Source of the DNA: Tribonema minus
Lineage: Eukaryota > Sar > Xanthophyceae > Tribonematales > Tribonemataceae
Reading direction: 5' to 3'
Assembly (NCBI GenBank): GCA_017506865.1
Contig: JAFCMP010000514.1
Coordinates: 992,001 to 1,056,000 of the forward strand
Length of the DNA stretch: 64,000 nt
Shown: piece by piece, positions 23,241 to 60,956 of the stretch
Layout: each line of letters starts with the position of its first letter
Numbering within the stretch: the first letter of the stretch is position 1
Translations under genes and position numbers: made by a program
The notes under the pieces: generated by a model
What the model was told of the DNA's origin: nothing
The model's database searches: none
The model's input: the letters and a program-made list of their open reading frames with translations, nothing else

Positions 23241-26200
23241 ATGACCAGTACAAGCACACCCAACGGAACTCCCAAGACGGTAAGACGCTGAGACAACCTG
23301 TGCTGCATTTCCGGCCCTTGCCTGCACTGTGTGCTGAGCGTGGCGTTTGTTGGTGCGGGTTTTGAGTGGTGGTCCTGCAACAGACGGAATGTCTCCGACG
23401 CAGATTTAAAGGTCACTGAAGCATGACGGCCTAGTGCGGTCAGCGCGCAGCGCTCGGCGCCAGTGTTTTAGTCCTGAAGAGGTGCTGCAGTGCTTGCAGC
23501 AGACCGTGGCCTCAGCCATCGCCATCGGCTCTCATGCGAATCTTCAACCAGCCAGCCCAATTGATCTCAATTTCCTCCGACGGCAGTGGCGCCTGACGGC
23601 ATGAAGCGCTTTTAATTAATAGTTAGTGAAGTTCTGTAGATGCCGCCATGAACGTGTCGGTGGCACTGAATGCTTGATGCCTCATGCACGGTCGGCGGCA
23701 GTTTCATTGGCATCCTGTCTCGGAGACTCCAGCGATTGCTTGTGCACAAGTTGGTGTTTGCCACACCACAATGCCGATGTTATGATTCACTTTGATACAT
23801 CGCTGGTTCTGCATCTATGTTGCGTTACAGTCACTTGAGGCTTTCTTTGAATGCACCACAACAATTCGACCTGGCCGCAGCTCATTGCTCTGTAGGATTC
23901 CTCTATCAATCATGAAATTCCTCCATGAATGATCGAATTTGTTAACAGAGAAAAGAAACTTTTGGAAGTACATGGATAAAGCTGCCTTTTGCACATGTGC
24001 ATCTGCCCATCCGAATCTAGTTATCATAAATTGTTTGTGAGCCAAGAAGCCTCACTGGCACTGATTCTTGCTCAAGGATATGCACTGACGTGATTGGGCA
24101 GAGAGGTGCTTTGCAGCAGCATTCAAATTGAAAATTGAGATATCATCTCACCCACATTCAGTTCCTGTCGAAGAATATGGGTGTTGAAGCAGAGTTGAAG
24201 TTTCATTTGAATCGTTCTGAACGAAGTCGTCCCTGTCATCTGTGTAGATATGGCCACTGTATCTTACTCGGTGTTGCACAGACATGACTCCCTGGAAGGG
24301 CAGCAGTGTTGATGATGCGGTATCAACCACACCATGGAGACGCTTCGGCGCACAGTGTGCCTTGCCTGTTGTGAGCGCAGGTTTAGTACATCGTTCGCAG
24401 CAGCTCGTGCGTTACATCGCTGTGTAAGCAATCGTCACCACTGCAAACCTCAGTCAGTGCTGCTTGGCACTACAGCCGCTCAGCCTTAGCTTTTTAAAAC
24501 TACAATTGATGTATGCCAGAACGCGCAGCTCATGGCATACGATGGATTGTGTTGCTTCGGTGCCCCGTCTTGTTTTCTCCATGTTCTCAAGCACTGCCCC
24601 TCCCGCACTCGTGCGCTACTCACATTGCACGAGCTACACTCACATGAGTTTATGAGCATTTGAGCTTCATTCCTCGCCTCTCCCAGCGCCGCACTGCCTG
24701 CAGCTGAGTGCGTGTCGTGACCATGGCGATGCACGCCAATGCCTCAGAGTAGCTTACGCAGCTCTTCCGCCCCTGCTCTGCCGCTGGGAAACGCATGTCT
24801 CAGGCCTCACCTTTGCAACAGTTTCCGTTCGGGCATCAAATCTGAGCCTCCATTTTCACAACTGCCGCCGTTGCTGCCGCCGCCGCAGCTGAGCGCGCTC
24901 GCCAAGTACAAGGAGATGCGCGCGAGCGGCGCGTCCGACTCGCAGATCCGCCTGCGCATGGCCAACGACGGCGTGCCGTCAGACGTCGCCGACATGTTCC
25001 TGAGCGCTGCCCCGCCGCTGTCGCTGGGGGCCAGCAGCGGCTCGCTGGGGGGGGTGGGGGGGTCGCCGGACAAGCGCGCGCGTAGCGGGAGCGTGGGGGG
25101 GCCGCGCACGAGCGAGTTCCGGAGGATGCTGGCGAGCGGCGTGCCGGCGGCGTCGGTGCGGCAGAAGATGGCGCGGGTGAGTCGAGCGCGGCTGTGGCGT
25201 CGAAGCGGGTATGTATTTCGTTGCTGGCGGAAGTCTGCATGCTTCAACTTTAGTTTTGTACTGTCTGAGTGTGTGATGTGTGGTGTGGCAAGCGTCTGTT
25301 GTTGGTCACGCAAGTTGACGCAGCAGAAGATGGCGCGGGCGAGTCGAGCGCTGCTGTCGCGTCGTAACGGGTATGTACCATGTTGCTGTGGAGGTTCTCA
25401 TAGTTCAAGTATCATAACACTGTTTGGGTTTGCAGTGTGCAGTGCTGCAAACATTTGTGGTTGTCTCGGGGGCTGGGGTTGCAGACAATGGCGCGGGGGA
25501 GCGGAACATTGCTGTCGCTTCATCGTGGGTTTGTGTATTGCTGTACAGGTCGTTACAGTTTACCACGTAGTGTGCGGTGCTGCCAACAGTTTTTTTTTTT
25601 TGAATGTGCTGCCAACAGTTTTTTTGTATGTAACGGGTATTGGCGCCGCAAAAGATGGTGCGGGGAGAATGTCGTTTCACAGTGGGCATGCGCACTCTGT
25701 AGAGGTCATCATAATGTATATACCATGTAGTGTGCGCTACTGCCTTACTCTTGTCAGGTCTCGAGAGTAGGTTAGGGTTAGGGTTGGGGTTAATTGGCGC
25801 CGTAAAAGATGGTGCGGGGAGAATTGGGCGCTGCTGTCACGTCATGGTGGACATGCATACTGCCGCAGAAGTCTTCATATCGCATGCCTGACTCTCTGTG
25901 CCGCTACAGCCCTCAACGGCGCCTCTGCGTTTACGGCGAACATGACTGCCTTCAATCGTTTAATCGCAGCACATGACTAAATTGGTGGAGAGGACGCATC
26001 AGCAATGTCAACTTTTGAGGCAACTCCAGAAATAAGAAGCGCTCATTGTTTCCCGAAATTTGTCACAGTTGTTGATTGATGATTTGGATCCAGAAGGTGA
26101 ACTTGCATTGAGGGTATAAATCCTTCTTGTTCAATGATGCAACGCTGCACAGCAACAGAAGCTGTTGTGCAACAGCAAGGCACCATGATTTTGAAGCTGA

Positions 26201-26552
26201 ACAAGCTGAACTATGCATGTCCCTCTGCCAGTCACTTCCAGCTGCGACAGTCAGAGGCAAGGCCATCACTGAGCATCAGAGGACATGCAAGAAGCAAATA
26301 ATACTGGTTTGCTCCTTTGCAGCTTCGGCATCATAGAGAGAGGGTCATTACTCTCAGTGATGTATACCATACATTGGAATAGCAATAGTTGCTTCATCGT
26401 TGCACATGGCTCAAGCGCTCTTATCTATGCAGCAGATTTTTACATGACGGTTTCCCAATGCGGCTGCTTTTTGGTTTTCGCTCTGCCCACAGCAAGGGAT
26501 GCTACCAGAGGAGATCAATGAGTTCTTTGCGAGCAACCCGGCGCTCGCTTGA
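23241..26552 (+). CDS. small protein with two WASHC3 (CCDC53)-like helical motifs
   Basis: Proposed exons 23241-23279 (MTSTSTPNGTPKT), 24889-25176 and 26493-26552, all phase 0 with GT/AG borders, give 128 codons. Residues about 14 to 47 read LAKYKEMRASGASDSQIRLR then MANDGVPSDVADMF. Residues about 90 to 128 read FRRMLASGVPAASVRQKMAR then QGMLPEEINEFFASNP and stop. This repeats the K-Y-x-x-M-x-x-x-G-V-P-x-x-x-V-x-x-K-M-x-x-x-G motif found in WASHC3/CCDC53 and related actin-regulator proteins, where it forms short helices. A Gly/Ser-rich linker joins the two. Exon 1 is less certain than the other two. The second intron is filled by tandem copies of its own donor junction. Confidence 0.68.
25160..25890 (+). 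repeat. donor-junction tandem array, about 160 bp x 5
   Basis: The end of exon 2 plus donor (CAGAAGATGGCGCGG/GTGAGTCG at 25161-25184) recurs at about 25322, 25485, 25647 and 25803. Variants run from CAGAAGATGGCGCGGGCGAG to AAAAGATGGTGCGGGGAG, followed each time by a similar GCTGTCGCGTCG segment. Similarity falls with distance from the real exon. The whole array lies in the intron. Confidence 0.9.
25767..25792 (+). repeat. interstitial telomere-like tract
   Basis: TAGGTTAGGGTTAGGGTTGG and a following GGTTA in the intron, between the fourth and fifth junction copies. Confidence 0.75.
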
Positions 26553-28369: not shown

Positions 28370-28535
28370 CTGCTAATTGCTGACATAAATTCTGGAAGCG
28401 GGGAGAATGCAACACCAACTTTCTCTCCAATCTGAGGCGCATTTGGGAGACCTGCGGCCTGGCATGCATGAATGCTCTCCTCTATGTGCACATCCAGCTC
28501 TTTTATAGAGGCACTGGCAGAAGCTGCTGCGTACA
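28370..28535 (-). CDS. candidate single exon, unknown protein
   Basis: The minus strand is bounded by CTGCCAG (acceptor) and GCAG/GTTTTT (donor). The frame reads YAAASASASIKELDVHIEE, then HACQAAGLPNAPQIGEK and FSPLPEFMSAISR. Helical, soluble-looking sequence; family not recognised. No partner exons were found, so it could be a chance frame. Confidence 0.3.
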
Positions 28536-29993: not shown

Positions 29994-32900
29994 TCAGGCG
30001 TGCGTCGGCGCCGGCGCCGGCACGCCGACGCAGAACGCGTTGGGCGTGAAGACGCCGTGCGGGTCGACGCGCCTCTTGACGGTGCACAGCCTGTCATACT
30101 TATCGCTGTCCTCGTGGTACAGGGGCCACGTGGCGCCCATGTTCGACTCGGATGCGTCGGAGATGTAGGAGCCCCACAGCACGCGCCGGTCAAAGCCCCT
30201 GCGACGGCGGCGGCGGCGGTGCGGAAGGACAGGGGGCACCATGAGGGCGGGGGGTGAAGGCGTTACATTTGTGAAATCGAGTGCTGGTGGCAACAAGGCG
30301 GCGAGAGATGACACATACCGGAAGCGGATGTGGGTGCCCGTGGACTTCTTTGTCTGCAGGCCTGCATTTGCCGGCAATTGCCCTAACCCTACCCCTAACC
30401 CTAACCCTAATCGCACGCATCCCCCGCCAACTCACTTGGAAAACGTGCCCTGGGGGCCCTTGAACGCCGCGTCGTTGCCCCTCTGCCACCTCGCTCGGCG
30501 ACCTGCGCGGGCGACTTGCCCTAACCCTACCCCTAACCCTAACCCTAACCCTAATCGCACGCTTCCCGCGCCAACGTACCTGGAGAACGTGCCCCGGGGA
30601 CCCTTGAATGCCGCGTCATTGCCCCTCTGCCACTTGTCAGCGACCTGCGCGGGCGACTTGCCCAGCAGCCGGTGCACGAACGCGTGCGCGCCGCGCGCGT
30701 CCTCGTAGAAACAGTCCATCACCGCGATGACCGACGTGTCGCGGAAGCTGTACGATGTGCGCCGCGCGGCATCGCCGCGCGCGAACGCTGAGTGGCGCCC
30801 CCCGTAGTGCTGTATCTGGACCATGGCGTTGCAGCCGTTGGCGAAGTCGCGCTCGAGGTCTTCGATGCGCTGAGCCGTGGCGGCCGCCCAGCCCGTCGCG
30901 GCGAGGTCCGTGGAGTTGGTCGCGTACGTGCGCTGAGGTGGAGATTCAAGTTGGGGGAGGAGCGGGCGTAGAGTTCAGAGCCAACTTCGGTCTATTGCAA
31001 TGGCAATCGATTCAGCTACTTCTACATGTACTGCCTACATGAAGGTCTCAAGTTTGAGCAGCCGGTGGCGGCGAGGTCCGTGGAGTTGGTCGCGTACGTG
31101 CGCTGGGGTGAAGGTTGGGGAGGAGCGGGCGTAGAGTAGTTCAGATCCAAGCTGGTGTACTTCGAATGCAATTAATTTTCTGTATTTTCTATGGGTCTCA
31201 AGTTCTAAACGGTCCCACATGGTGAGGTCCGTGGATTTGCTTGCGTAGGCGCGCTGGGTTGCGGTTGCGGCGGAGCGGGCGTAGAATTTGGAGTCAAGTT
31301 GGTGTAGAGCAACTCCAGTTGCTAGGGCACCCTTTACTGCTTGTGAGTCTCGATGATTGGGCAATAAAAGTCGTGCAAAGAAAAAAACGTGGCGAGGTTC
31401 GTGAAGTTGATGGCGTACCACTACTAGTAGCACGTGCACTGGGTTAGAGGTTGGGAGGGAGCGGGCGTAGAGTTCAGACCTGTGTTGGTGTACTGCAATC
31501 TTTTTCCTTGTACAGCTTGTGGGTCTCGAGACTTCAACATTACGAAGCGGCAGGTCTACGGCGTTGGTCACATAGGCGCAATAGCTAAGGCTCAGGGGGG
31601 GCGCAGGCATAGAGTCAGAGCTACTTTTGTGTCGTGCGATTCAAAGGCTGGTATCTACCTGTACTGCTCACGGGTCCTCAGATGCGTAATGGGCTTTAGT
31701 GAGCGACTTCCCTTCAGTCTTCAACTTCAAACGCGGCGCCAGGCATCATGAGCATGCGTTCAGCCTTGTTGAACCTAATTGAGCGGTGGGTTTCATGGGA
31801 GACCACTCTCAGTCTTTAACCGCAAACGCGCTCACCTTCTTGTAGGGCATCTCAAACTCACGCACGTTCTTAAAGACCCAGAAGTCAGTCATCTGGGACA
31901 TCTTGGTGGGCTTGTCAGCCTTCAGCTCAAAGATAGGCTTAATAATCCCCTCGGATGCGGCAGATTTGATCTTGTTGAACCAGGCGTCGTCGAAAGTCTG
32001 GCTGGCGCCCCCCAGATTGGCCCACTGCACGTAGACTACGATGGCGGCGGGCCAGCCCATCTTGTCGTTGTCGCCGTAGGTGCCCTGCAATTGTGTGGCG
32101 GGAGGGGGGGGCAAGGGGGGCGTGGAGGGTAGCGATACATTTGAACTGTTTTTACAAACTTGAAGTCACACAAGGGTAAGACATTGAACAGTATGCGCAA
32201 TACACCCCACGCCGTTGCTGAACACATCCCCCGTATTCAATGCTGCATGGAAAAAATTACAACGGTTCCCAGTGGTCAGTCAGCACACAGAGTAGTAGTT
32301 TGAGCTCATTGAAACTATTCGCCCTTGGCGGACGCTATTGAACACCAATCATAGCTTTGTAATTGGCAGGGCTCGCCGGCAGTTCGACCCTTATTGACGC
32401 CATTCACCAGTGGCGACGCTATTGAAATTATAGTATTAATTAATACAATTGACAGGGCTCACCGGGTGGCGCGTCCTCATGTATGCGTCAATGTCCCTGA
32501 AGTCGTACGCTGGCAGAATGGACTGCCCGGCGCTGACGACGGTGACACAGTAGTCGTAGTCACCCGGGAATTCGTCGTCTGCCGCCATTTCGGCCATTAT
32601 CTGCAGCAGCTTCTGGACCTTCTCCTTCTTGTACAGCGCGTAGAACTAATGGGGGAAGGAGGAAGGAAAAGGGGGGGGCAGGCAGGGGGCAGATGGCGGC
32701 AAAAGCAAGAGGGTCAATGATGAATAAATGCAGCGGGACCTACCACTGGGCACTGACCTGCTGCTCTCCATGCTGTGCCGTTAGAGGTGTACACGCGCCA
32801 TGAATCATTCTGTACGACTTTGTAAGAACATTTGTGTGTCACATGCATCATTTCTCCAGAAGCAGATGAGAAATATGGCCTAGCCGATCACCAACCACTC

Positions 32901-35900
32901 AACTTCAGTTTTGAACACTGCCGCGTCAAAACCTGACCTTGAACCTCGCGCAACATGAGAGAGGGCAATGCATTCATGGCACCTCAATGGTGGAGCAGCA
33001 GCCTCAATATTGAAGTCGGCATGACCAGCCTCACGCCACCCAACACGGTGGGAGACGCACGCCGCAGCACGCGCACTCAGCCACATCGTCACAACTTCAA
33101 GCGAGCTCAAGAAGGGGATAAATTCATGTTCAACTCCAACTTCAACTTCAACTTCTGCTCACCTTCATCCCGTGCGCGTTGGGGTGGTCCTCGTCGTGGT
33201 GCGGCCTTATGGTCACGTGAGTCAGCACGCCAAAGTTGCCGGGGCTGCCGCCGAGGACGGCCCAGAAGAGCTCCTGGTCAGCCGCGACGGCGCTGTCACG
33301 CGTGAGCTCGCGCACCTGCAGCGGCCGCAGCAGCGAGCAGGATTCATGAGCGTGTAGGCAAGTGCTCACCACGATTCTGCTGCCAAGTACTTATCAGCAC
33401 AATACGCAGAAGGAGACAGTGTAGTATGGTGTCGTGCGCACAGGCTTCGCGCTGAGGTGACGCTGATGGCCAGACTATGAGACAGGGCTGTCGCGCGTGA
33501 GCTCGCGCACGTGCAGCGGCCGCAGCGGCGAGCAGCGCTCGCGAATGTGTAGGTGCTGAACACCAAGTACTACCTACCAGCACAACACGCAGAAGGAGAC
33601 AGTGTAGCATGGTGTAGTACGCACAGGCTTCACGCTGAGGTGACGCCGATGGCCGGACTATGAGACGGTGCTGTCGCGCGAGAGCTCGCGCACCAGCACT
33701 GCGGCAGCGGCTGCAGCAGCGAACAGGACTCGTGAATGCGTAGGTGCTGCAGCAGCTCGCAGCTGCAGGGTTAGCAACGCAGCGGCAGGGTGCGTCGTGA
33801 ATGTGTTGATGCTGTATATGCGCACACCATTGAGTACCAGCGCTCTTCTGTGACAGCAAGAGTTTGCGCACTTGCGGTGATCGCAGCAGCGAGCAGGCTT
33901 ATGGAGGTGTACCTGCCGTGTGAGCTGGCAGCATATTGATCACGCGCAAGTGCAATACAGTGTAGGTGCTGTATGCGCACACCGTTGACTCACGGTGTTG
34001 AGTACCAGCGCTCTTGCGCGGCAGTGAGAGCTCGCGCGCCTGCAGCGATCGCGACAACGATGAGGTTTGCAGGAGTAGAGTGCCTGCCCGCCTGCGCTGG
34101 TGGTATGTTGATCAAGCACAAGCGCAAAGTACAGATCACACAATCACGAGCCACAGATATGCACAGAGCATATGTACAGTCTTTACGCTGATGCCCTGGT
34201 GAGCCGTGGTGATGCTCAATCATTGCTCACGGGCCTGATGCGGTTTTCACAGTGGCTTGGAATGCCATGGATGACAAGAAGCACTGTTGCGCTCCACAGT
34301 GCATATGCATTTGCGCGAGCTCCAAACACACATTTACCTCACGCAGTCTTGATGGCCACGAACCAGTTCACAATGGCAGCTGCCACAGAGGCTCGGCAAG
34401 ATGTTAACATCAGTGAGCTTCACGGTATGTGTACTGTACTGTTCATCGCGGAGTAAAAAGAAATTACACATTCATAGGCGCAGGCTTCACACACTGTGTC
34501 ACACCTCTTGGTCTGCAGTACCTGATGGCTACGATGCGGTCCCCACACGGGCTTGTCAGTGGGCTCAAGCGCGATGATAACACCAACAGGCTTCACATTA
34601 TTGGTGCGCGCACGAGTCAATCGATTTAACACACTGCTCCTGGTCTGCGGTGATGATCCTGATGGCCACGATGTGGTGCAAACAGGCTTGTCAGTAAAGC
34701 TCAAGCTCAGTAATTATTTGTTTGAGACACTAGCAGGCTCTACGATATCCGCGCGCGCATGAGTCAATCAACGCACACACCTCCTGGTCTGCAGTGATGA
34801 TCCTAATAGCCACGATGTGGTCGCCAAACAGGCCGAAGGCACGGCTCAGCTGCCCGTAACCGCCGGTCTGCGCGTGCCCGCCGATGCGCACGTGGGAGCA
34901 CTGGCCGTGCGCCACAAAGAGGCCCCTCTCGGCGAGCTTCGCGCGGAAGTCTATGAGCTTGTGGCTGATGCCTGCACATGGCGGTTGAGAGCGCGGGATA
35001 TTAGTACAAAAGCACAGCAAGCCTGGGCATTCTAGCTCAGGGTTGCTGCAACACCAACGCAAAAGATCTCAAACTGATTGTGAACACTGGCAGAGTCTCG
35101 AACGAACTGCAATGTCAAGTGCACGACTTCAAGTGAAACCTGCTAAGAAAGCAGTGATCATCTCAACAGGACCAACTTCAACACGTCTGAACTGTGAACT
35201 CGTTGTGTGACTTGCCATTCTGAATGTGATGCCTGCTCTACGCTGCCAGTGAGTGCTTGGTTGCACATGGCAGGAAGTTACTGAAGAATCTGACGGGAGA
35301 CTGCCAGGACTGGGGCACCTCCAGCTACTAGACTGAGTACACCAAAAGGTAATATGCACCACGCTGCGCTTCGCTGCAAGTACTACTAGTAGTCAGGCTG
35401 TGCAAGCAGCCTGAGGTAGCCCCTGGCACGCCCTTTCCTTGCTAAGGCTTGCACAAGACACCAGAGGCGCCCCCCGCCCATGCATGTAATGCTAGCAGTG
35501 TGCGCACTGGTCACCAGGTTCAAGTTGATGCATCAATGCAATTGCTTTGTCACAGTCACTGAGTCACTGTGGTGCATGCCCGACACTTGCGCATCCGTTG
35601 AGACGCGTCACCATGTGACACCAACAGAGCCTGGACCGCCCGCGGGCCGCGCACACGGTGGCACTGTCCATCGCAAATGCCAGCAGGGCAATGTACTTCA
35701 ACTTCAAGCATAAGTTTCTTTCAAACTCATCTCACACGCAGCGCACCCACCCGGCGGCGCGCGCAGCAGCCCCGTGGCCAGTGTTGTGAATCCCGTGCCC
35801 CCGGGGGGGGAAGGGAGTTACCGGGAGCAAGGGAGCGACCAGGATCTGAAGGGTGCTCCCGGCACTCGCGGCTAACCCTAGTTGAAGTTATCCGGACCCT

Positions 35901-47300: not shown

Positions 47301-50300
47301 GACTCACCGAAAGCAAGCATCATCGCGTGGTCCTCGTGAACGACATTGTGGCCTGCAATGGAGGGAAAAAAAAACACAGTGCAAGCAACGGCATATGGTC
47401 AGCGCTCAGCATGGTCTTCATGATGGTCTACTTCAAATGTGCAATCAATGACATGCTGCGATCGTGAAGCACACACAAATGTCGCAGTGCAGGTACCAGC
47501 GTGCATTCGGCGGTCAGCAGTGCTGCATCATGGTCTGCTTCAAGAGAATGATCATTGGCATGCCGCAACCACGCAACACAGAGACCATGTCACGCGTGCA
47601 TTGACAAGATCATACGCGCCATGTCGGGAGCTGCTGATGCTGAACTACTGCAATGGGCCAGTCAGCCTACCTTGCATGTGTTGTCTTAAATAGCCACATC
47701 ACTATGCATAGATGCTCACCAGCTCGACACTTGAAGCATCGCGTGTGATTGAATGACAGGGTAGTCTTGAAGCTGAATGGGCCTAACATATTCCCAAAGC
47801 TTGAGTTATTGCAAACGGACTCACAGTGGAACATGTAGTCTGCTTCGTAGGGGCCAAATCTGGCCATGACCCAGATCTCATCGCCGTCACCAAGGAACAC
47901 GACGTCTGCACAGGCAGGAGCAAACGTGATTGAGACATGCATGGGTGTAAGCGCGCAAATATTGCCAGAAATGCACATGGCAGCAGCAGCTACAACAGCG
48001 ACCTTTGTGTATGTGGTGCAGTGCGTGGGTGGGCATGATCAAGCTGCACGGATACTCAAGTGTGCAGAGGGGCATCTAGTACACGGCTGTACTGCAGCAG
48101 TACATGCGGTGAACACCGAGCAGCCATTGCAATGTCATTGAGACAGCGACGACAGCAAAGCGCGGCACAATGGGTGATTGCGTTGTCGCAGTGCAGGCAT
48201 GTGCATGTTCCACTTTGGTTGCTTGCAGCAGCCGTTGGGATTTGTTCTGGGTGCTCGCTCACACCTGCCGATCAGCACACAGCCAGGCAGTCAGATAAAC
48301 AACACGAGATGCCCAACTTGACCTCATGCAGGCGCACCTGCGTACTGATACGTGTCAGTCAACTTCAACAAGAGACATTGACACACGAGTAAGAGAGACC
48401 AGTGGCAATCTTGCGCAACGCCGATCTAGCTGCTTCATACTTGGCATTTCAAAACAAACATGCAATATTGCATGTTCAGATAAGCCTCTGACTTACCCTT
48501 GGGTGCGTCCTGTTCCCAGCGCCTGAGACCGTTTGCCGTGCAAGCATTGGCGACGCAGTAAGTTCCTGACAACCGGACGCACACAAGCAGGCAAGGTTCA
48601 AGTTCATCATGAGTTCAGAAATTTATGTGTGCTGATTGTGACATTGATGGGTAAAAAGGCAGACACCTCAACACTGAGTGATCGAGTCCAGGTACACGAG
48701 ACGCCAACAGCAGGGTTGCCTCCAAGAGGGCACTTGTGGCTCGTGTTGAAGTGCATGATGCAGCCATTATGACATCTCTTTGCAGCGCTGCATGATCTGC
48801 TTGAGGGCATGTATTGATCTGATGGCAAACCTGGAGCGTCACCAGATTGAAGTGCAGTGGTAGTCACCGATGGAAGTGCCTTGAAGTGTGGTGCAGCATC
48901 TTACGCCAATCACAAGGGATGCCGCAACGCGCTGCAGAAACTTGACGTTCGAGTTGAGGTTGACAGAGTGGCAGTGATCACCGATGAAAGAGCTTCAAAG
49001 TGACGTGCAGCATCTTACGCCAATCGCAAGGGATGCTGCCACGCGCTTTTCAGGCTGCCAGACTAAAACTGCATGCGCTGGACAGATTGCAGCGACATGA
49101 CATTAACGGGACTGCATACTGCTGCAGCCACCGCCTGATGTGCTCTGATTACGACACTGCCGTTGTTGCACCACACTGAAGTTGTATGCAGTAGCCACAG
49201 CTCATGCTGGTTTCTGGTTTCACCAGGCGGGCAGCGGGACTCGTACCATTACTCAAGTTGCAAGCAATGGTCATAGTTCATGCCGGTTTTTGGTCTCACC
49301 AAGCGGGCAATCGAGTCCTACAATACTCAAGTTGTAAGCGGTGGTCACAGCTCATGCTGGTTCGTGGTGTCACCAAGCGGGCAGTGGGAGTTGAGGCTGC
49401 ACTGCTGCAAGCACCATTTCACATGCGTAGATTATTGCATCGCCGGTGTTGCGCCAGTATACAGCTGCAAGCATTTGTCGCAGTTCATGCTGGTTCGTTG
49501 TCTCACCGAGCGGGCAGTGGGAGTCGAGGCTGCAGGACGAGCGTGTGCATGTGTTGGCGGTGCACGTGGACCCCGAGGGACAGTCCGCTGTAACCGAGCA
49601 CCTCAGAGGGTTCAGGTTGGAGAATGCGCCATTGGTGTTCTGCAGCAGCAGTCAACAGTGAGGAACACGGCACCAAAAAAGTCAACACTATGAACTCTCA
49701 GACTTGCTTTTCTGCGGCAAGGATACTGATGGAACGGACTTTGAAGTGGCAGCGCTCAACTTACACCAGCAGCATGAGAGCACTATCGCCATGATGCAAG
49801 CACTGTCTCTGCCACCTCTAGCACCCTACTCAACCACAGAACCCGAGCGCACCATTAGGTAAGGGAATCTGAATCACCAGCGCATCACATGACACAACCT
49901 CCAGCGCGCACGGCCACGCACGCTGATGGCTGACGAGGTTGGTGCGCTGGATTCACCTGCGTGAGTATGTCAAAGTCGTTGTACTGGTCCGTGCTCCTGC
50001 CGACGGCGTAGACAACCAGGAAGTCGACGAGGTGGATGTGGATGGGGTGGTGCCAGCCGCCGCCGCCCTGCAAAGCCAACGCAGAGCACCACAATATGTG
50101 TATGCATGCCATAAGCCAAATGCCATGGGGAACGCAGTGGCGCAAATTTGACGCAACCACAGAGAACCAGCGTATGCACATGCACGCTGTGAGTCGAACG
50201 GCAGGCGGAACTCAAATTGCGACCCAACTTCAAGCCTGACGCGTGAAAGTGACTGGCAACTTCAAACTTCCAGTTGAAAGTGGCAGGCATCTTCAAGTTT

Positions 50301-53300
50301 TCAGCAACTGCTTCTATGAGATTGCGGCGTGCAACTCATGAGTAATGGCACAAACGGCGTTACGCTCTATTGTACCAGCACAAAATCCAAGGAGACAGGC
50401 AGGTACGTGCGACATGCGTGAAGCACTAATGCCCCGGATGTAGTCATTGAGCAAGGTTGCGCAGAGAACAATCTTCAACCCAAGACAATGGCAGGTCCCT
50501 AACGACAAGTCTGTATCGCAGCATACGTGCATACCTTCAGTCGCCAGAGCTCGATGCCATCACGAGGGGGGTTGGCGATGATGCGGTGGGTAGGGTCAGC
50601 CCACGTGAAGCCGTTGATCACCCAGCCATTCATGCCTTTGCCGAAGGCGAAGTCCTGCAAAAGCACAAAGCAGAGTTGAAGTTAGATGTCAGCACAAGCC
50701 AACAGCCGTTGAAGGGTGACGTCGATGGTCATAAAAAAGCATGAACTGACGCATATTCCCACATTTGCAGCATACTGCTGGTGCCCATGCCTTGCCCCTG
50801 ACTTGACTACCGAGTTACTATTCCCTCAGGCAAGGTGTAAGCACAAGTCGGCACAGAGAGTTCAAATCTCCATTCACACACTTCATGCATGCAGAGACCA
50901 CTCACCCTATCGGGCATGCCCCCTGACATCGCGCGCGCCTTGTACGCATCAAGCTCGGCGTTGCTGATGAGGCTGCGGAGCGCACGCCTGGTGTTGAAGA
51001 AGCCCTGTAAGCGCACACAAAACATGAAAATGAACAAAACAGGTTCACTGATGTTTTTTTTTGCAAATGTCTGTGACAGCGGTTCTATGTTACTCATGAA
51101 TTGCAATTGTCTGCATCAGCAAACATCGGTGCCTGCCAAGCCAGAACCACCTAGTCGCTGTGATGTTGATACTGGCGGAAATCATTCACACCTTGCTTTG
51201 CACGGTCGCTGGCTCACTCGTCTGAAGTCCAAACATGCTGCTTCTCTCAAATTGCAGCCACACCAGTGGACACGGCAGTGTCAGCACAACAAGGCCCTAC
51301 AGTGCGCATATTGTTACAAGCGCGGACTGGCAGCTGACAAAGACTACAGTAGCAGAAGGACTACTGTAGCATAATTGCGTTTGTACTGGGTAGATGCCAC
51401 CTGTCAGACCTCCTCGGATTCGTGCAGCGCTCTGAACAAGCCCTGACAGAAGGCTCAGACCAGGTGATTGGTGAAGGCAGAGGTGGCAGGCTGCTAGACA
51501 CCAATAGTCAGCGCACTCACTGTGGGCGGCCCTCTCAAACCACACTGATGGTGAACACAGAGGTCACAGGCTGAACATCATTGCTCAGCACACTCACCGT
51601 GGGTGGCCACGTGGTGTCAGCAGCGGAAACGGTGGCGGTGTCCAGGGGCAGAGAGAGCTCGAAACGCGCCAGCAGGTGCGTCTTGCAGAAGTGGGGCGCC
51701 GCGGTCGATGGCGTGGACGAGCCATAGTCATTGACGGCATATACATACCTGGGGGGTACAACATAGTACACGGCGGTGTGCATACGCGAAAATGAAGCTT
51801 GAGTGTAAGACTGTAAGACTGTACTTGAGGGTCGAGCCGTAGTCGTTGACGGCGTATACATACCTGGGGGTGTAAGCACAATGGATGGCAGTGTTTACAG
51901 TCTACATGAAGTGTACGCATACATGAAAGTGTACACAGTGCAACACTCTATTTGAAGCAGGAGCTGTAGTCATTGACGTACAGACCTACATAGGGGAGTA
52001 CAGCATAGTACACGGCGGTGTGCACACATGCAAGTGTACAGTTCTATATGGGGGGGTAGCTGCAGTGGATGGACGGGCACGCAACGCTTTGCAACATGAT
52101 AGTCACTCTGGGTAACCTACAGCTGGCGTGTGAGGCTCATTGTGATGATGCTTGGTGTGCTGTGTGCATCGTGCTGATATATGTGTACTGACCAGACACG
52201 AACTCTGCGGGCAGATGGCTTTCCCATGCATGCCAAAGCTACAAGTCCAGCCATGTGGAACAGAATGGCAGGGCTAACTTGGCTATTGGTTCGGGGCTGG
52301 CCAGAAACGTGCGCTGCTGACGCCAACCCCTGAGACTTGAAGCAAGCGTACATACTACAACCAAGGGTTAGGGTTAGGGTTAGGGGACCAGCATGGCTCA
52401 GCGCTATGAGCTTATACCTAACCCTGTCCTAGGCGCCAGCCGACGACAACAGACTGCTCAGCATCTCAGTGTTTGGAAGTCTATAAAAATGCAAAACTTC
52501 ACATTCTGCTGTGCAGAGCCATTTTGACACAATGCACGCATAACAGCTTGCATACTTCTACTTGAAGTTCTTTGGACTCACTTCCATGGCGTTGTGGTCG
52601 TGGGCAGGTGCGCGGCCTTGAAGCTGTTAGAAAGGAGCATACATGCATATGTACACGCACACACGAGGTGAATGAATGTGGGTTGACAGCTGATGCAGCA
52701 TCAATGCAACGCCACACTGATCACTGCTGCCAGTCTGCATCTGCATGAAGAATGACAACCGGTCGAGCACCAGCACAAGGCAACAGGGCGCTTGCATGAA
52801 AGCAGACACCACAGATAAACATCTGCGGCACATGAGCTGCGCAGTGCTGCCATGACAGCGTCAAAGCACTCGCTCAATCTTGTGAGGTACTCTGTAAGCA
52901 CACGCATCGCACGCGGATCAGAGCTGCACATTCTGCGTACTCTTGTGAAGGTTTTTTTTGCCCCTGAAGCGGCAGTACATGGAAGTACTCTGTCAACTTT
53001 TCGGAGGCGCACACATACCTGATGAGAATGTCAGCCCTCTCAGCGTTGGCGACGAAGATGTGGTTGAGCTTGCGGGCGTTCAGCACCTGGCCCCCATCGG
53101 TGCCTGCACCCAAGTAAACCATATGCACGCGCGATGTGGTCAGTAAGCATCGTGAGCAGTAAATGTCACGGATGCTGAGCTCATCTTGCACGAGGAAGTG
53201 CAGATCGTGTTGTGCTCTTTTGTATCTAGTGGTTGAGTTGCGGGCATTGAATAGGTGGTCCCCCCTTCGGTACCTGCAGCGATGCAGACCGCATGAACAC

Positions 53301-56300
53301 GCGCATCTAATGTTGTGCACCGGTTAACAAGCTAACTGCCTGCAGCCGCGTCTCATTGGCGCTGAGCAGCTGTGCAGAGACGACAGAAAAAATTCAGCAA
53401 TGACGTGCCACTGGCTTTGGACTCATCTTGCACAACATTGTGAAGGCCTTAATGCTTATTTGCAGGAGTATAGAACGACAGACACCCCTGCACTAGCCAA
53501 ATTGTCAGTGATCATGGGCTGCAATATGGAGTAAGCACGTCGCCGGCATACAAGCATCATGTATATATTGGTGCAAGCTACCGGGATGTATGCACATCGA
53601 AAAGTACTTCAAACAGGAGTAATCTAGAGTTTAAGCCAACCGCTGCACAGCGCACAATAGGTTCGAAGTTTGATTTTGCGATACGCGCTGCCTTTTGCGG
53701 AAGCAAACTTCTACATGCACAGCTCTCACTGATGAGGTGGAAGTCCACCCAAAAAGACGCCGCTCACAACTTCATCTCAGCAAAGTAGTTGACGCTCCAC
53801 TCGCATTGTCGTTTATACCATAGTATACTTGGCGAGTGACGGCTATAGTAATTGTGTCGGGTGACGCTCCCTCTCACCGATGAGGTAGAAGTCCACCCAC
53901 GCCTGCTTGATAACGGTGACGCCGTTCACGACAGCCTCGCTCTCTGCGATGAACTTGAGGCTCCACTCGCGGCTGGCGGCGGCGTTGAGCACGTTGAGAC
54001 GGTACACGCGCGGTTCCACCTTGAGGTACGGCCAGGGCTTGCCGTTGACCGTGTTGATGTCGCTGCGCGCGGGGAGAGTGGAGACAGAGGCGAGGTGTCA
54101 GCAGCTGCACCGCCAGCACTGTAGACGATCGACGCAGGCATGAGTTAGTGTCGCTGCGCGCGGGGGGAGTGGAGACAGAGGCACGGCATCAGCATCTGCA
54201 CCATCAGCAGGCGGTTGCTGCAGCCATGAGTGACGTTGTGTTGAGCCATGAGCAGCATTATGTTGATTGCCGCAGCCATGAGTGGCATGGTGTTGAGCCA
54301 TGAGCGACATTGGGCTGATGACGCTGTGCGCAGGGAGCGTGGAGACAAATGTGTGACGTCAGCATCTAACACCAGCATAGCAGATCTATCATAGCCTCAC
54401 ACAACGCATGCCAGTTACCTCACATGGCCAGACTTGAGGCACTGATGGTCACTCCTCTTGTGAACGCTCAATGCCACTCTTGACACCAGTGCACTGCACA
54501 TGAAAGGGGGGGATCATCCTTGCAGCAAGACACGAGCCACTGATGCTCACCCAAAGACGAAGTCTTGGTGAGCGCCGGCCTTGTCGTAGTTGAGGGGAGC
54601 CTGGCCTGCTGCGTTGAGGGTCTTGGCCAGTATAAAGTCCTGCACGCACAGCACGGATCAGCATGTATTTATGAGTGCTTGATTGGTGCACCGCCAGCCA
54701 ATGGCACGCACAGCACGGATAAGCATGTACTTATAAGTGCTTGATTGGTGCCCTGCCAGCCAATTGCACGCACAGAGCGGATGAGCATGTACTTATGAGT
54801 GCTTGATCGGTGCACCGCCAGCCAATCATAGAGTGCAGATCAGCAACTGCGCCCGACTATTTTGTGAGCGGTGCATTTTAACTAGACCTGCTCCTCGTTC
54901 TCTCATTTTCGACTGATGCTACGAGCATGTCATGCATGCTGATGCAGATGCGCATCTACACTTACAGCATCTTGGTGTGTGTGCAACTACTTATGTGTGC
55001 ATTCACAAACTTGCTGCAGATCACACGTATACACAACGGCTACCAGTACCATGATGCATACATCAGTGGCGTCGTTCACACATAATGAAGCACATTGCAT
55101 CAGGCGCGTTTGTGACTGTGACTTGGAAGTATGCTCATACATACATCAAGCTGTACTGACAAGGACATTCACAACTTTGCATGAAGCATAGCACCAGCCC
55201 TAACCCTAATCCTAACCCTAACCACAAAGAAGCCTATTAGGCTAAACCCACCTTCATGACAAAAGGAATGGTGTGCCTGTACGGCAAAGAAGCAGGATGC
55301 AGACAGAACCCGTCACTAGGTCAGCACGTTTGGCATCACTGCGATACATACAATGCAAGTAAACAGCAAATGACGGGTCACGAGCAACGCATTTCAAACT
55401 TCCATTTGCTTCTGCAACGACTTCAAGTGATCCATGGCAGGTCTCAAGGCAGCCATCAGTCATCTCAGAGTTTGAAGCTTTCACCACGAATGCCTTCACA
55501 GCATCCCACAATATGCCTTCGAGAGCAACTCAACCTGACAACCTCGCTTGGGGTGTTTGGGCGTGAGGAACAGATCGCACAATGCAAGGCCCCAGCAGCG
55601 GTTGCCTTCATGCTTACCTAACCATCCTCTGCCCCAGAAAACTGTTCCGCGGCCCTAACTACAACAGCCTGCTTTAAATACGTTCCAGAGCATGAATAAG
55701 ATCATTGCGCAAGCGTCTTCTCATTGCTGTGTGTCAATATCGCATGTTCAAATGCTTTGCAAACCACTGCCTGACGCACGCATGTACTGCTCTGCATCAT
55801 ACACAGTATGTCAACGAATCAAATGCTGTGCCCTGCTCTGACACTCACTTGTCCTTGGGCATGTAGTTCTTCTCCTTGTCGTTGGTGCAGTCGCGGACGA
55901 TGTACTGCCCTGCCATGCCCGCAAAGGTGTTGTCGGCCGTGAAGTCCAGCCTGCAGACAGCATATAGTGTCACAGAGGCGCTCTCGGTGTCAGAAACTAT
56001 TGGTCAAGCCATCAGAAATTGGCACTGCACTTATTGCAACAACAACGTTTGCCTACGGGTCTGTGGCGCAGCGCAGGTGGGCATATTCGCGGTGAGTGAT
56101 GCACAACACTGGATAGGATCTGCACCTCTCAAGCGGAAGTGAGACAGCACTTTGAAGTACTTCACATGTGGGGGCGAAGCAGGGGCACTTGCGCACCTGA
56201 CGAGTAAGTGTGCTGCTGACATAAGGTGGAACGCAAGCTCACCATGCCCGAATCAAGCGTCCAGCGGCACTGAAGTTCTTCACCTGACTTCACATGCCAA

Positions 56301-59300
56301 GCACTGACGTCAGCAAACGGTGCTGCATGAGGCGTGCTGTTGGCAGCTGTACCAGCACAAAGCACGTTGCTCGTTCTCTGGTTAGCCTCATGTCTAACGT
56401 ATAGCGAACTTGACTGATACCGATCAGCTGACTACTACTTCAACTTCAAGCATCATGGACTACTCACGTGTGGTCGTGGTACCAGAGGCCAGTAGCCCTG
56501 CAGACAGAAAAAGCACAGAGGAAAACAGCGAAGGAAGTACTTTGAGTGTGCATGCACTTGTGTTCTCACCAGTGTTTGTACGCCCAAATGGCAAACGTGC
56601 ACAGACTTCAAATCTGCAATGGGAATACGGAAGCTGCCATAAAGAATGCATGCATCCAGTGGCACACTGCTACCCGCAGTTTGCATCATCAGGACCTGGG
56701 AACAATGCAACAAGGGCAGCTATGTAGATGACTACACGTGAAAGGGTGGCAGATTACTTGTCAAGAACAACCTAGTTACTGCAATCGTGTGGAATCTAGA
56801 CTATGCTGGCAGACCGACCAGCATGCCACCGCAAAAAATGAGTCAGGTGGCCTAGTGCAGCTGTGACTGTCATCATGCATCCACAGCTCAGGGGACATTA
56901 CATCACACATGCAGTCACCTGTTGTTGGGGTAAAGGTACTCCTTGCACTGTGATCGGCAACAACAAAAGGCACGGGAGAGTGGCAATGGTGTGAGATACA
57001 TAATTGCTGTGCGGGGCGAGCCAACACGTCAAGGCACTACAGTAGCTGCAGCTGTGCATATGCGGCAGAGCTGCAGGGCAAGAACGCTGACTTGCGCAGG
57101 CATGACCACAGCAACTGATTTTGAAAATGCTTGTATGCTGCACCTCTGAGCAACCGTCTGTATTGAAATGCCTGGCCGCCTGCACAGCTGCATGATGATC
57201 TGCATGGCGGCGACGTTCATCATTGCCAGGCGTCACTGACGCTGCGTCAGCATTGACACGTCAGTGCGACATGGAGGATCGGAACCATATGCACAGTGCT
57301 CAGCTTGTGCACAGATCCCGCATAATGGCATGGGCTTACCTCTCCAAGGTCGGTGATGTCTTCTGCCCATCCGTCTGTCCGACACAGGAAAAGAAACAGA
57401 GCACAGGCAGCTCAGGCGCAGCGGTGTACAATGACAGCCATGGCCACAAGAACCTAATCCACAATATAAGGCAAGGTACTAATATGTAAGAATGGCCACA
57501 AGAACCTGACCAGATGAGGGCACTGTAAGTGTGGATTGTGAACTCTGTCGGCAGTGGCAATAGCGGCGGCAGCAGGTTTCGCAGCATGCAGTACATCTTC
57601 ACACGCAAGAAGCGCGCGGTCTAGTTGTCAATCTGTGGTACGGTGAGCGAATCACGCTGCGAGCGGCACAAACATGATCTCAAGTGATTTTCTTGTTCCA
57701 TGCAACATCAAATCACCAGATGCTCACCATAAGCGGCGACCGACGCTGAGCCATGCAGGTGAACGCTGAAGGCCCTGTTGGGCCCAAACTTAGTGGGGAG
57801 CTTGTTGCAGAAGCGCACCAGCGTCTGACGCCCAGCGCAGTTCTTGATGGTGGGGCCGGGCACCGTGAAGCCGTTGGTGGCAGAGCCATAGGCCATGAGC
57901 TCCGTGCCGGTGTAGCTGCCAGGTACAGCAGCGGCATGGGGTGCAGTGCGTGTCAGGCATTGCGTGTCAGGCATTGCATGCCAGTCTTTTGTGCTTTACA
58001 GTTGATCGGACAGCATCATGTATGGTGATCTGAGTGTTACAAAACATCACGGCAGAGCCGTAGGCCATGAGCTCCGTGCCGGTGTAGCTGCGGGGCACAG
58101 CAGCGGCATGGGGTGCATTGAAGTATGCGTCAGGCATTGCATGCGAGTCTTTTGTGCTCTGGAGCAATCCGCACAGCATGATGTACAGTGGCCTGACTGT
58201 CATGACACATCGCCGTGCTCGCCGTCCTTGGAGGACAATACAGGCATATGCCATGCGCCACAATTACTGGCAGCCGCAATGCAACGATTGTGCTTGGCGT
58301 ATGCAGCTGTGAGGTTAGGGTTCAGATTAGGGTTAGGGTTAGGGCAAGTGGCGCCACACGTTCAAGTCGCTTAACCACAGCATTTGTCGACATCACTCAC
58401 AAGAAGGTGCATAACGATGCCTGTAGAAAGCAGCATCACAAACAGCCAAACACTGAAGCGCGCATGAACATGCGATACACGATGGCGCCTGCACTGTACG
58501 ACTTGCATCCGCATCTTCAACTTCAACTGGCAGAAGCTTCTGTCTACAACTCATACACTGTCGCTCACGAGCAAGCACCCCTCTTCTGAACGAGCTGGGG
58601 GTGAGCGACCCGGGACTGAGCATTGTGACAGGCAGTTACAGTTTCGTGACGACGCAGTGTCACGTACCCGGTAGGGCGGCACTGGTCAAAGAGTTGAGGG
58701 GGGGGCGAGCGACGTGGACTGAGCGATGTGACAGGCAGTTACGTGACAGTTATGGACGGATTTGAGTGAATGTCACGTACCCGGCAGGGCGGCACTGGTC
58801 AAAGGTGCCGGTCGGGCTGTTGGCTGTGTTCTTGCCCAGGAAGAAGTTGCCGATGACCGTGTTGAGGTCTAGGGCCTCAAACACATCCACCGTGCGGACC
58901 TGGTCCTCGTACGTCTGTGCCACGTACACAGAAGAGCGCATCGAGACACTTGGTCAAAAGGTACATGGCTTTGGAAGCACAAGAGCTTCATGTCTATGAT
59001 ATCTTGACGTGTTCAAGAGGAGGTGTACAAAAGCATGTATAGGCTCTGGTAGCAAGCTTGACGTCAACAATTTGGGCGCTTTTGCGTCCTACGCGAGTGT
59101 TTATGAAAGTTCAGGATCCTTGAAATGTGGACTCGTGTAACGTCTGCCAAGACGGGATGTTGCATGGCCGCTTGGGAACTTGGAGCCTGGCCATACGCGC
59201 ACAACCAACACGTTACCGAGGCGAGGTATATACATACATGTTCACGTCTGCAAACACATGGCGCGAACGCACAGCTATCCTATGATGACTGCTGTGCGCA

Positions 59301-60956
59301 CTGCGGCGGCGGCAGTGCAGCGCAACACGCCCTTATCGCACTGCTCACCTTTACGACAGGAAGGTCGCCAGCCGCGTTGTTGTTTGCCTCGACGCCCGCC
59401 TTGGTGGTGAACATGGGCGTGCTGAAGAGCGCAGGGCGCGCAATACTCGTAGGCCAGGAGCCGACGTCACCGCACGTCCTGTTGTACATACCAGCATACA
59501 TACATGCCATGGTTGACAGAACACCGGTCAGCAACAGATCAAGGCTGCTCGGCGTACGCCGTGCAGAATGCAAGCGGCTAGTAATATGTTGAAGGCCAGG
59601 CGCCAACGTCACCGTAACTCCTGTCCAGGGGGCATCATATATACATGCATGCATACCATGGTCGACGTGGCACCGGTCAGCAACAGACCGAGGCCGCTCG
59701 ACACAGGGCGTACAGCATTAAGGCGGCTAGTAATATGTTGAAGTCACCTGTTTAACTGATGCATACATGGTCGACAAGGCACCGGTCAGCAACAGATGGA
59801 GGCTGCTCGACATGGGCCGTACAAAATACAAGTGTCTAGTGATATGTTGAAGTCAACTGTTGAACTAATACATACCATAGTTGACAAGGTACCGGTCAGC
59901 AGCAACAGATTAAGGCCGCTTCAAGTTGACATAACGCGTACAACAGAAAACCGTCTTTATAGCAACAGGTAGGTCAACTGTTGAAGTGAGGCAGAAGTCT
60001 GTACAGCGCTGCCACGGCGGGGCTGAGCATACTGTGCTGATAGGAAATAGAACCTAAAACCGAGGTGTTCGCATTGCGTGGTGCTCGAGTTGCGGTGCTT
60101 TAGAGCTGCAACCTCTCCACGTGTGCATGCGCAGAGCCAATGTTTAAGAGGTATTGTTGCGGGCGTTTACTAAGATTTTGTGTTGTGGGTGAGCGTGTGC
60201 TGTGTACGCTTGCGGCGCACAGATATGCGGCTCATCTCCGCTCTACACAATACTTTAAGTGCATCTAGACTCAGCATGAATGCCTTCTGCTTAGCTCTGA
60301 GGTCCGCCATGGCCTTTAATCATCACAGTGACTCACCCAAGGATCTTGCGTGTTGGGAAGAGCTTGTTGGCTGCGCCATAGTGTTGCTGAGCGATGAATG
60401 GGTCCCTGCCGAAAGCACGTTGCAGCAGAAGGGCAGCGGTCGCGGGCAATTCCGCGATGTGAGCACGGCGAGTATCTGCACATGCGGTCTGGTGGCCATG
60501 GCAAGCACAACGCGTAGTGACGTTGTGACACGTGGGGACAAACATGCTGCGCAGGAGGCCGCAGCATTAACACCTGTCACTCGGTGCCCGCATGACGTTG
60601 GTCATCGCACTAGCATGCTTCAGCTGCTTCTGCAAAAAATAACAGTGTCATGATACACATGGGAGACATGTACATGAATTGAGCGGGCCGCTGATGGTAA
60701 ACGAACAAGTTGCGAAGCTCTAGTGTTCAGATAAAACTCGGTAGACTAGTCTGCTTGCGAAATGCAGAGAAAATTGCATGCGTCTCAGTCAGGACACAAT
60801 CTAGCATATCATTGACATGCAAATGTGAATGGCGGCTTTTGAAGCAATAAAGTCTTTGTGCAGTACTTACATGGCTGCTGGCTCAAACCTCTGGGCAGGG
60901 TCGCTTTCATCGCAGACAGCCAGTGCCGAGTGTGTGTTACAGCTGAAAGTCAGCAG
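44343..60956 (-). CDS. multicopper oxidase (bilirubin-oxidase/CotA-like), at least 24 exons
   Basis: Minus-strand exons: 60956-60871, 59478-59349, 58914-58781, 57915-57728, 57374-57340, 56947-56919, 56497-56468, 55950-55849, 54639-54551, 54062-53878, 53103-53019, 52623-52582, 51748-51598, 51004-50906, 50654-50535, 50067-49957, 49639-49507, 48565-48497, 47905-47825, 47352-47308, 46675-46515, 45992-45905, 45420-45319, 44504-44343. All have GT/AG borders and fitting phases except between 55849 and 54639. Copper motifs in order: SVHLHGSAS, LWYHDHT, WHHPIHIHLVDF and, across two introns, YMFHCHNVVHEDHAMM (type-1 Cys with axial Met). Three cupredoxin domains oxidise a substrate and reduce O2 to water. 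A Cys-rich insert (DCPSGSTC, HCPLGTYC) sits between the last two motifs, and over 165 residues follow the final motif. The 5' end, signal peptide and stop codon were not located. Secreted or cell-wall role is an inference. Confidence 0.93.
44485..44675 (-). repeat. acceptor-junction duplication at the last exon seen, about 100 bp x 2
   Basis: CTGGGCAGCTGCGCCAGGGG with GGCGCCAGCGGGGACAGC (44496-44540) recurs as CTGGGCAGCTGCGCAAGGAG with GGTGCCAGCGGGGACAAC at about 44597-44640. Confidence 0.88.
44874..44996. repeat. perfect 49-bp inverted repeat (hairpin) with 25-bp loop
   Basis: 44874-44922 and 44948-44996 are exact reverse complements over 49 bases (arm begins GCCCGTCATTTCATGCTGAC); the loop is 44923-44947. 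It lies inside the intron between exons 45319 and 44504 of the multicopper oxidase. No coding content. It may be a hairpin-forming RNA, a fold-back element, or a recent template-switch product. Confidence 0.95.
46255..46475. repeat. tandem duplication, about 115 bp x 2, in an intron
   Basis: GGACAATGCACTGATAGCTG then ACG (46288) and GGACAATGCACTGAGAGCTG then ACG (46395), each followed by a CACAAC/TCGTAAC and ACTCCC/CCCACTGTGC-like stretch. Confidence 0.7.
46665..46950 (-). repeat. acceptor-side duplication, about 195 bp x 2
   Basis: GCCGACGCCTGCGGTCGCAA ... CGGCCGTCGACTTGG (46669-46755) and GCCAACGCCTGCAGCCGCAA ... CAACCGTCGACTTGG (46863-46948). The first contains the real acceptor of exon 46675-46515. 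The second could splice as a short extra exon but would shift the frame. Confidence 0.8.
48866..49042. repeat. tandem duplication, about 110 bp x 2, in an intron
   Basis: TCACCGATGGAAGTGCCTTG with GCAGCATCTTACGCCAATCA then CAAGGGATGC, repeated as TCACCGATGAAAGAGCTTC with GCAGCATCTTACGCCAATCG then CAAGGGATGC. Confidence 0.88.
49196..49530 (-). repeat. donor-junction array of the Cys-rich exon, 4 copies
   Basis: The real exon end and donor (plus strand TGTCTCACCGAGCGGGCAGT, then GGGAGTCGAGGCTGCA) has three copies at about 49366, 49295 and 49222 (for example GTGTCACCAAGCGGGCAGTG). Each is preceded by CATGCTGGTT and a CAAGTTG or CAAGC word. Spacing is about 72 bp, then 135 bp. Confidence 0.9.
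51718..52010 (-). repeat. acceptor-junction array, about 120 bp x 3
   Basis: The real acceptor side (GTCATTGACGGCATATACAT, then ACCTGGGGGG) recurs at about 51840 (GTCGTTGACGGCGTATACAT, then ACCTGGGGG) and 51966 (GTCATTGACGTACAGACCTA). TAGTACACGGCGGTGTGCA follows the first and third. Confidence 0.9.
52366..52386 (+). repeat. interstitial telomere-like tract
   Basis: GGGTTAGGGTTAGGGTTAGG, three to four perfect TTAGGG units inside an intron of the multicopper oxidase. Confidence 0.85.
53218..53277 (-). repeat. copy of an acceptor junction (exon 53103-53019)
   Basis: GCGGGCATTGAATAGGTGGT and CCTTCGGTACCTGCAG resemble GCGGGCGTTCAGCACCTGGC and CATCGGTGCCTGCA at the real exon start. Confidence 0.75.
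54053..54400 (-). repeat. acceptor-junction array, 3 copies
   Basis: TGTCGCTGCGCGCGGGGAGA with GTGGAGACAGAGGC (54058 on) recurs at 54149 (TGTCGCTGCGCGCGGGGGGA) and about 54320 (ACGCTGTGCGCAGGGAGCGT then GGAGACA). Further internal copies of GCAGCCATGAGTGACGTTGT occur between them. Confidence 0.9.
54636..54831 (-). repeat. acceptor-side array, about 64 bp x 3
   Basis: GCACGCACAGCACGGATCAG, CATGTATTTATGAGTGCTTG and CACCGCCAGCCAAT repeat three times with few changes, the first unit touching the real acceptor at 54640. Confidence 0.93.
55197..55223 (-). repeat. interstitial telomere-like tract
   Basis: CCCTAACCCTAATCCTAACC then CTAACC in an intron of the multicopper oxidase. Confidence 0.85.
57872..58215 (-). 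repeat. acceptor-junction duplication, about 173 bp x 2
   Basis: The start of exon 57915-57728 with acceptor and upstream intron (CATGAGCTCCGTGCCGGTGT, then AGCTGCCAGGTACAGCAGCG) is repeated at about 58066-58105 and continues as GTCAGGCATTGCATG and GTCTTTTGTGCT. Little divergence, so this is a young duplication. Confidence 0.93.
58314..58345 (+). repeat. interstitial telomere-like tract
   Basis: GGTTAGGGTTCAGATTAGGG followed by TTAGGGTTAGGG, in the same intron as the duplication at 57872-58215. Confidence 0.85.
58620..58810 (-). repeat. donor-junction duplication, about 107 bp x 2
   Basis: The real donor side (GTCACGTACCCGGCAGGGCG, then GCACTGGTCAAAG at 58772) has a copy GTCACGTACCCGGTAGGGCG, then GCACTGGTCAAAG, at 58661. 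GTGACAGGCAGTTAC occurs in each unit. Confidence 0.92.
59450..59960 (-). repeat. acceptor-junction array, 4 to 5 copies
   Basis: AGGCCAGGAGCCGACGTCAC (exon) is copied as AGGCCAGGCGCCAACGTCAC at 59594. The flanking intron motif ACCGGTCAGCAACAGAT, then GCTGCTCG, recurs at about 59523, 59672, 59780 and 59893, with GGCTAGTAATATGTTGAAG between. Confidence 0.9.

Follow-up and report, generated by a model that had tools for sequence, protein, structure and literature searches.

Tandem copies of exon-intron junctions within introns of the xanthophyte Tribonema minus

Described duplications across splice boundaries

Degenerate units arranged head to tail are a familiar component of introns, in the form of intronic minisatellite and satellite arrays. 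The arrays considered in this study are unlike these, since their units consist of each locus's own exon edge and adjoining intron, and most of them include the splice junction itself. Closer in kind is an event in the RdRp gene of potato where, according to the available text of its description (Ma, Lan and Niu 2016, PMC4974935), a single tandem duplication across an intron-exon boundary, carrying acceptor, tract and exon edge, created a new spliced intron. The same text cites the tandem genomic duplication model of intron gain (Rogers 1989; Hellsten 2011), in which exonic AGGT segments are duplicated. By experiment, tandem duplication has been obtained from paired nicks and from breaks whose ends protrude, in the latter case after error-prone repair, as set out in the accessible part of another report (PMC5730883).

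The T. minus copies resemble the potato event in that a tandem duplication crosses the boundary, but whereas the latter, as described in that text, was a single event giving a new intron, the copies in T. minus are many and often serial, occur on the donor as well as the acceptor side, and are taken up into the intron already there. With the Rogers/Hellsten model, as summarized there, they share a short tandem duplication near coding sequence that carries splice signals; that model creates introns, whereas duplication in T. minus acts on junctions already present and does no more than lengthen introns. The break-induced duplications are similarly local and head-to-tail, and can recur in second and third rounds, but they arose at nuclease-made breaks, with no link to splice junctions in the accessible part of the report, and the resemblance is one of outcome only. 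The sequence-only reading that drew attention to this DNA knew of no named system of this type. That statement needs amending for the junction-crossing duplication itself, which the available text describes in potato, while a literature search of partial coverage found no report of junction duplication on such a genome-wide scale.

The host, Tribonema minus, is a xanthophyte of the PX clade, with a genome of 158.18 Mb in 554 contigs. The window, meaning the whole 64-kb stretch analysed (C511:992001-1056000), was chosen by a reader who noticed the pattern there, so that loci elsewhere weigh more. Its left part (1-12324) holds retroelement frames with reverse transcriptase, RNase H and integrase, and a C5 DNA (cytosine) methylase domain lies in a long frame at 1999-5427, on the strand opposite the reverse transcriptase frame. 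Three host genes were recognized: a CCDC53/WASH-subunit-like gene (weak Pfam match), a FAD_binding_4 oxidoreductase gene (30012-36771, minus strand), and a multicopper oxidase gene close to bilirubin oxidase (46503-61004, minus strand). The last two were mapped with Trinity transcript-derived EukProt proteins, whose source species is not shown. P0001 (95% identity over 99% of the query) gave 23 exons of the multicopper oxidase, and P0121 (98% identity over 73% of the query) gave five introns of the FAD gene. Together they fix 25 introns with GT-AG ends. Two further oxidase introns flank an exon that the transcript contains and were placed by a gene model, which brings the set to 27 introns with 54 junctions, every one of them GT-AG.

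Junction copies in the window

The degenerate junction copies that the sequence-only reading had described are real. Self-comparison, counting local direct repeats at offsets of 25-700 bp, gave 50 matches for the window but not one for any of three Markov composition controls, so that the repeats are not a product of chance. Across the window and grouped loci, with near-duplicate and overlapping loci included, there were 268 direct and 20 inverted matches. Ten of the eleven junctions listed in that reading were placed exactly by the transcript-derived proteins (30932, 33315, 34781, 49507, 51748, 54062, 54639, 57915, 58781 and 59478), and the eleventh, 25176, by a gene model. A copy was present inside the intron at 13 of the 54 transcript-backed junctions, comprising six donors and seven acceptors.

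In the CCDC53/WASH-subunit-like gene, where the junction is set by the ab initio gene model only, a donor-side array at exon edge 25176 (25158-25843, plus strand) contains up to five degenerate units at a spacing of about 154-162 bp, with GT altered in the copies read. All of the following arrays are on the minus strand. Three in the FAD gene adjoin transcript-backed junctions. The acceptor-side array at 30932 (30889-31498) has an exon part of 44 bp and three extra copies, at 170, 320 and 491 bp, while that at 33315 (33286-34134) has four, at 195, 386, 556 and 724 bp, with the score dropping outward. The donor-side array at 34781 (34500-34833) has an exon part of 53 bp, with two extra copies by junction probe and four copies in all by repeat search. 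As an extreme case, the 1465-bp intron between the last two junctions (33316-34780) is mostly filled, the acceptor array extending over 819 bp and the donor array over 281 bp, in agreement with the earlier suggestion that copies lengthen introns. A paralogue of the FAD gene (C511:492571-493647, L067) lacks two introns of about 1.5 kb, corresponding to window 33316-34780 and 34972-36483, and seems to retain introns further downstream.

In the multicopper oxidase gene, five arrays at transcript-backed junctions agree with the earlier listing. They are the donor-side array at 49507 (49118-49534), with three extra copies of identity 0.91, 0.82 and 0.80 going outward; the acceptor-side arrays at 51748 (51715-52027) and 54062 (54055-54377), each with two extra copies, the exon part at 54062 being only 8 bp; the acceptor-side array at 57915 (57879-58211), with one extra copy 172 bp upstream; and the donor-side array at 58781 (58597-58804), with one at 113 bp. 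For two others the details differ from those first given. Near acceptor 54639, three 62-bp units about 90% alike (54642-54826) contain no exon and end 1 bp from the junction, so that this is strictly an interior array, and the acceptor-side array at the transcript-backed junction 59478 (59451-59920) has one extra copy with exon edge, its remaining units being intronic. Four junctions absent from the earlier examples also carry copies: donor 51598 (51469-51608); donor 53878 (53723-53899), a gene-model junction beside a transcript-supported exon, with a 29-bp copy 148 bp into the intron; acceptor 46675 (46660-46952); and junction 36484 of the FAD gene, with a weak copy 727 bp distant.

Dispersed repeats were seen in one intron of the FAD gene, where 35009-35169 is a 160-bp repeat of about 80% identity listed at more than 20 places, and 35779-36267 is a 490-bp repeat of 69-81% identity found at at least 15 places besides the window. 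Their presence in the same introns is what would be expected if introner-like mobile elements had been inserted beside exons. The array units themselves had no dispersed copies among the whole-genome matches listed for two gene regions used as queries (such searches give lower bounds, one list omitting even the query's own place), and every array read consists of its own exon edge, which makes insertion of mobile elements hardly credible as the source of the arrays.

Frequency of copied junctions and the chance model

Introns outside the window were defined in several ways. A gene finder consisting of a small hidden-Markov model was seeded with kinase and ABC exons of the same genome and then self-trained; after false exons in arrays had been masked, it recovered 27/27 validated donors and 27/27 acceptors, with five false calls of each. 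It was applied to a 270-kb sample that left out window positions 1-12500 (retroelement), the near-duplicate loci L010, L020 and L031, and L001 and L059-L066, with L032, L050, L052 and L053 trimmed where they overlap other loci. A second set comprised exon edges anchored by Pfam matches to kinases and ABC proteins, L002, L008 and L009 having no exon model. A third was judged by homology, its junctions being set by reading conserved kinase, ABC and chaperonin motifs, with solved-structure alignments backing L036 and L046 only. Its 49 introns came from 17 loci, most of them picked for holding arrays, together with L036, L046, L070 and L071, and two of the 49 hand-set acceptors were not AG; L040 and L042 (paralogues on C146), L005 and L018 were not judged, and L021 and L033 yielded no judged intron. 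Finally, five stretches were taken at fixed coordinates. A dynein-like model at one fixed-coordinate locus was set aside, as its match to solved structures was too weak to confirm its junctions.

Intron copies were found at 33/234 junctions of 117 ab initio introns outside the window (22/202 when one paralogue family is omitted) and at 5/58 junctions of the fixed-coordinate stretches, so that the affected share is about 9-27%, depending on the set. The pattern occurs on many contigs, as the sequence-only reading had supposed, and has the look of a genome-wide habit in T. minus. Any repeat carries a general risk of assembly or read error, and nothing beyond this was found in favour of an artefact; the many substitutions and indels between copies, the agreement of exon order with the transcripts, and the spread over contigs render it extremely improbable.

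Most arrays that occupy introns straddle a junction. This was so for 13 of the 15 arrays in the 27 transcript-backed introns, one of the two exceptions ending 1 bp away, and for 36 of 43 ab initio arrays outside the window (the other seven being interior), a count that may be inflated by false exons. In the homology-judged introns the proportion was 24/32 (p = 0.0035 against 0.5), or 17/25 without the C146 paralogue family (p = 0.054 against 0.5, and 0.004 against 0.4). Beside the 72 Pfam-anchored exon edges that adjoin an intron there were 17 straddling and 7 interior arrays within 300 bp (p = 0.03 against 0.5), while the fixed-coordinate stretches gave six and three, which is not significant (p = 0.25). 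Two chaperonin genes run in the opposite direction, with one straddling and four interior arrays, two of the four touching a junction within 4 bp. Repeated partial exon-edge copies beside a full exon were also seen in chaperonin genes by profile search, at C51:21979-22639, C135:208164-208583 and C5:352998-353558.

The obvious alternative to a special role of junctions is ordinary random tandem duplication all over introns, with the exon-crossing duplications staying recognizable for longer. In a simulation of this alternative, tandem duplications fell uniformly on introns and exon edges, exons were conserved, sequences underwent point mutation, indels and deletions, and detection was the same as for the real data. 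The uniform model by itself yields a straddling share of 0.33-0.50 for introns near 500 bp (0.23-0.30 if arrays promote their own re-duplication), and by intron length 0.55-0.62 at 300 bp, 0.40-0.49 at 450 bp and 0.21-0.39 at 600 bp. The observed values of 0.75-0.87 exceed the model at comparable intron lengths, exon conservation included, the binomial probability against 0.5 being 0.004 for 13/15 and 5e-6 for 36/43.

Base coverage by repeats seems at first to favour random placement, as it is flat over the junctions. In the ab initio introns outside the window, coverage of exon edges was 0.17-0.21 and that of deep-intron sequence 0.175, and for the fixed-coordinate stretches the two values were 0.10 and 0.16; in the 27 transcript-backed introns the deep-intron coverage was 0.25. 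The uniform model, however, expects a deficit at the edges, to 0.34-0.59 of the deep-intron value, whereas the observed ratio is about 1, so that flat coverage already exceeds it. A reading of no junction effect, suggested by base coverage, was overturned by counting arrays, since most intron-filling arrays include the junction. A coverage peak at junctions in the first ab initio plot was due to false mini-exons in arrays and was gone after masking.

Counts of complete units point the same way overall. Head-to-tail full-unit arrays at ≥70% identity numbered 51 in the 270-kb sample: 34 of exon plus intron, 11 intron-only, 3 outside genes, and 3 of exon plus flank. Among the 14 most recent full-unit pairs the corresponding numbers were 6, 3, 3 and 2, too few to tell. 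A test on 'young arrays' defined by short high-identity matches (26 exon plus intron, 9 intron-only) was dropped, because a match of this kind may be the best-preserved part of an older unit. The density of intron-only arrays is about as low as that of arrays outside predicted genes (22 in 125 kb and 10 in 70 kb, respectively), which again sits poorly with duplication all over introns. Stop and start codons were spanned in only 1/30 and 1/31 cases, compared with 53/290 junctions (window included; Fisher p = 0.039 for stops alone and 0.0017 for starts and stops together), which tells against conservation of coding edges as the whole explanation. The claim that junctions are 'systematically surrounded' by their copies was too strong given the flat coverage and the modest share of junctions affected, although straddling does stand above the uniform model (13/15 and 24/32 against 0.21-0.50 at similar intron lengths). 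A preference of duplication for junctions over random placement is likely but not proven. Random duplication, which can point to the flat coverage, the chaperonin genes and the few recent pairs, is considered unlikely while deserving serious weight; besides the straddling counts, it has to contend with recurrence at single junctions and with the graded similarity described below.

Order, decay and splicing of the copies

Two or more copies were present at 25 of the 48 copied junctions. With a junction probe, the nearest copy scored above the farthest at 22 of these 25 multi-copy junctions, including all six that are transcript-backed, which bears out the earlier observation that similarity declines with distance and supports the view that copies are made repeatedly at the junction. 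A duplication that crosses the junction puts its new copy beside the exon, so that older copies shift away, and the copies seem to have been added serially at the junction, the older ones being pushed outward. Duplication among intronic copies alone should not yield such an order. No junction event was found among the differences between homologous contigs, two sets of which were compared. The contigs (C90/C179, carrying L068 and L069, and those of L008, L010, L020 and L031) are collinear and about 96% identical, possibly haplotypes. Two blocks set L068 apart from L069, one of 72 bp, which has a local repeat in L068, and one of 19 bp.

Copies could also be retained by selection, if extra splice sites aid exon recognition or act as alternative sites. 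The GT or AG is kept in 59/70 copies, and in 7/7 at transcript-backed donors, and of 81 junction matches, 24 extend no more than 12 bases into the intron, stopping just beyond the splice consensus. Retention of GT/AG was for a time read as selection, but the exon side is the better comparison: since the true GT/AG is conserved too, copies are expected to agree with it to the same degree as with the exon, and roughly this was seen (identity 0.86-1.00 for the GT/AG bases and 0.84-0.93 for the exon side, compared with 0.71-0.78 for the intron side), in rough agreement with neutral decay. The divergence is near 1:2 between exon and intron sides, as expected if exon-side change is confined to the copy. 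Several copies, among them those at 25176 and two of the copies at 33315, have lost the site, and the transcript proteins skip the copies, so that selection appears improbable. Plain decay does not explain 14 matches at ≥85% identity that run no further than 10 bases into the intron. In general the copies decay roughly as expected without selection, a conclusion which, like the junction preference, is supported but not settled.

In the two genes with transcript proteins, the exon-proximal (outer) sites are joined in all 25 fitted introns, at donors and acceptors, and neither P0001 nor P0121 shows use of a decoy site. Nor was any new intron spliced out within the duplicated regions of these 25 introns, and gene structure was unchanged by the copies where tested. 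The suggestion that copies seed alternative splice sites or introns thus found no backing in these two proteins. Some copies can be read in frame, for example YTGTELMAYGSA upstream of 57915, and the gene finder called some of them as exons, as might be expected of tandem or mutually exclusive alternative exons. Only 8-53 bp of exon is copied in the transcript-backed genes, however, and the transcripts join the outer sites, making alternative exons very improbable.

Proposed mechanism and significance

The explanation judged somewhat probable for T. minus is repeated junction-crossing tandem duplication, with the copies absorbed into the intron and decaying there while introns grow. Tandem duplications of about 60-200 bp would reach from the intron a short way into the exon (mostly 10-60 bp). 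The outermost site, next to the exon, would continue to be the one spliced, exon definition being the simplest reason, and the extra exon edge, splice site and intron start would be silently swallowed by the intron and then decay. Each new junction-crossing event would leave the youngest copy beside the exon and displace the older ones, producing the similarity gradient and longer introns. As the initiating cause, error-prone repair acting on staggered breaks or on paired nicks is proposed as the likeliest, and once a first repeat exists, slippage or misaligned repair may follow. Recent pairs with exact ends were too few for scoring microhomology or a nick signature at unit ends.

Interstitial telomere repeats are a sign of break repair. 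Telomere-type repeats of this sort (at least 12 bases of TTAGGG or near variants) were noted at 17 sites over 270 kb, and predicted introns account for 16 of these. The sites are at window positions 25771, 30392, 30530, 52367, 55197 and 58326 and in loci L005, L013, L040, L041, L042, L048, L056 and L058; at five sites they lie in or beside duplicated units.

A broader proposal, offered tentatively and with some doubt, is that splice junctions are mutational hot spots, where a process linked to exon edges, be it transcription, splicing, chromatin or exon-intron composition, keeps causing duplication, at donors and acceptors alike and rarely at start or stop codons, and that this may be a main route of intron growth.

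The pattern in T. minus works like the potato event, as the available text presents it. It differs in being widespread and often serial, and in that the structure of the gene stays as it was where tested. It touches on the questions of how introns lengthen and where new splice sites originate. With one junction in four to eleven, depending on the set, accompanied by ordered and decaying copies of itself, the genome preserves a record of past rounds of duplication, each tied to a known position, and the system allows testing of how splicing separates the genuine junction from decoys that resemble it at a distance of 100-200 bp.
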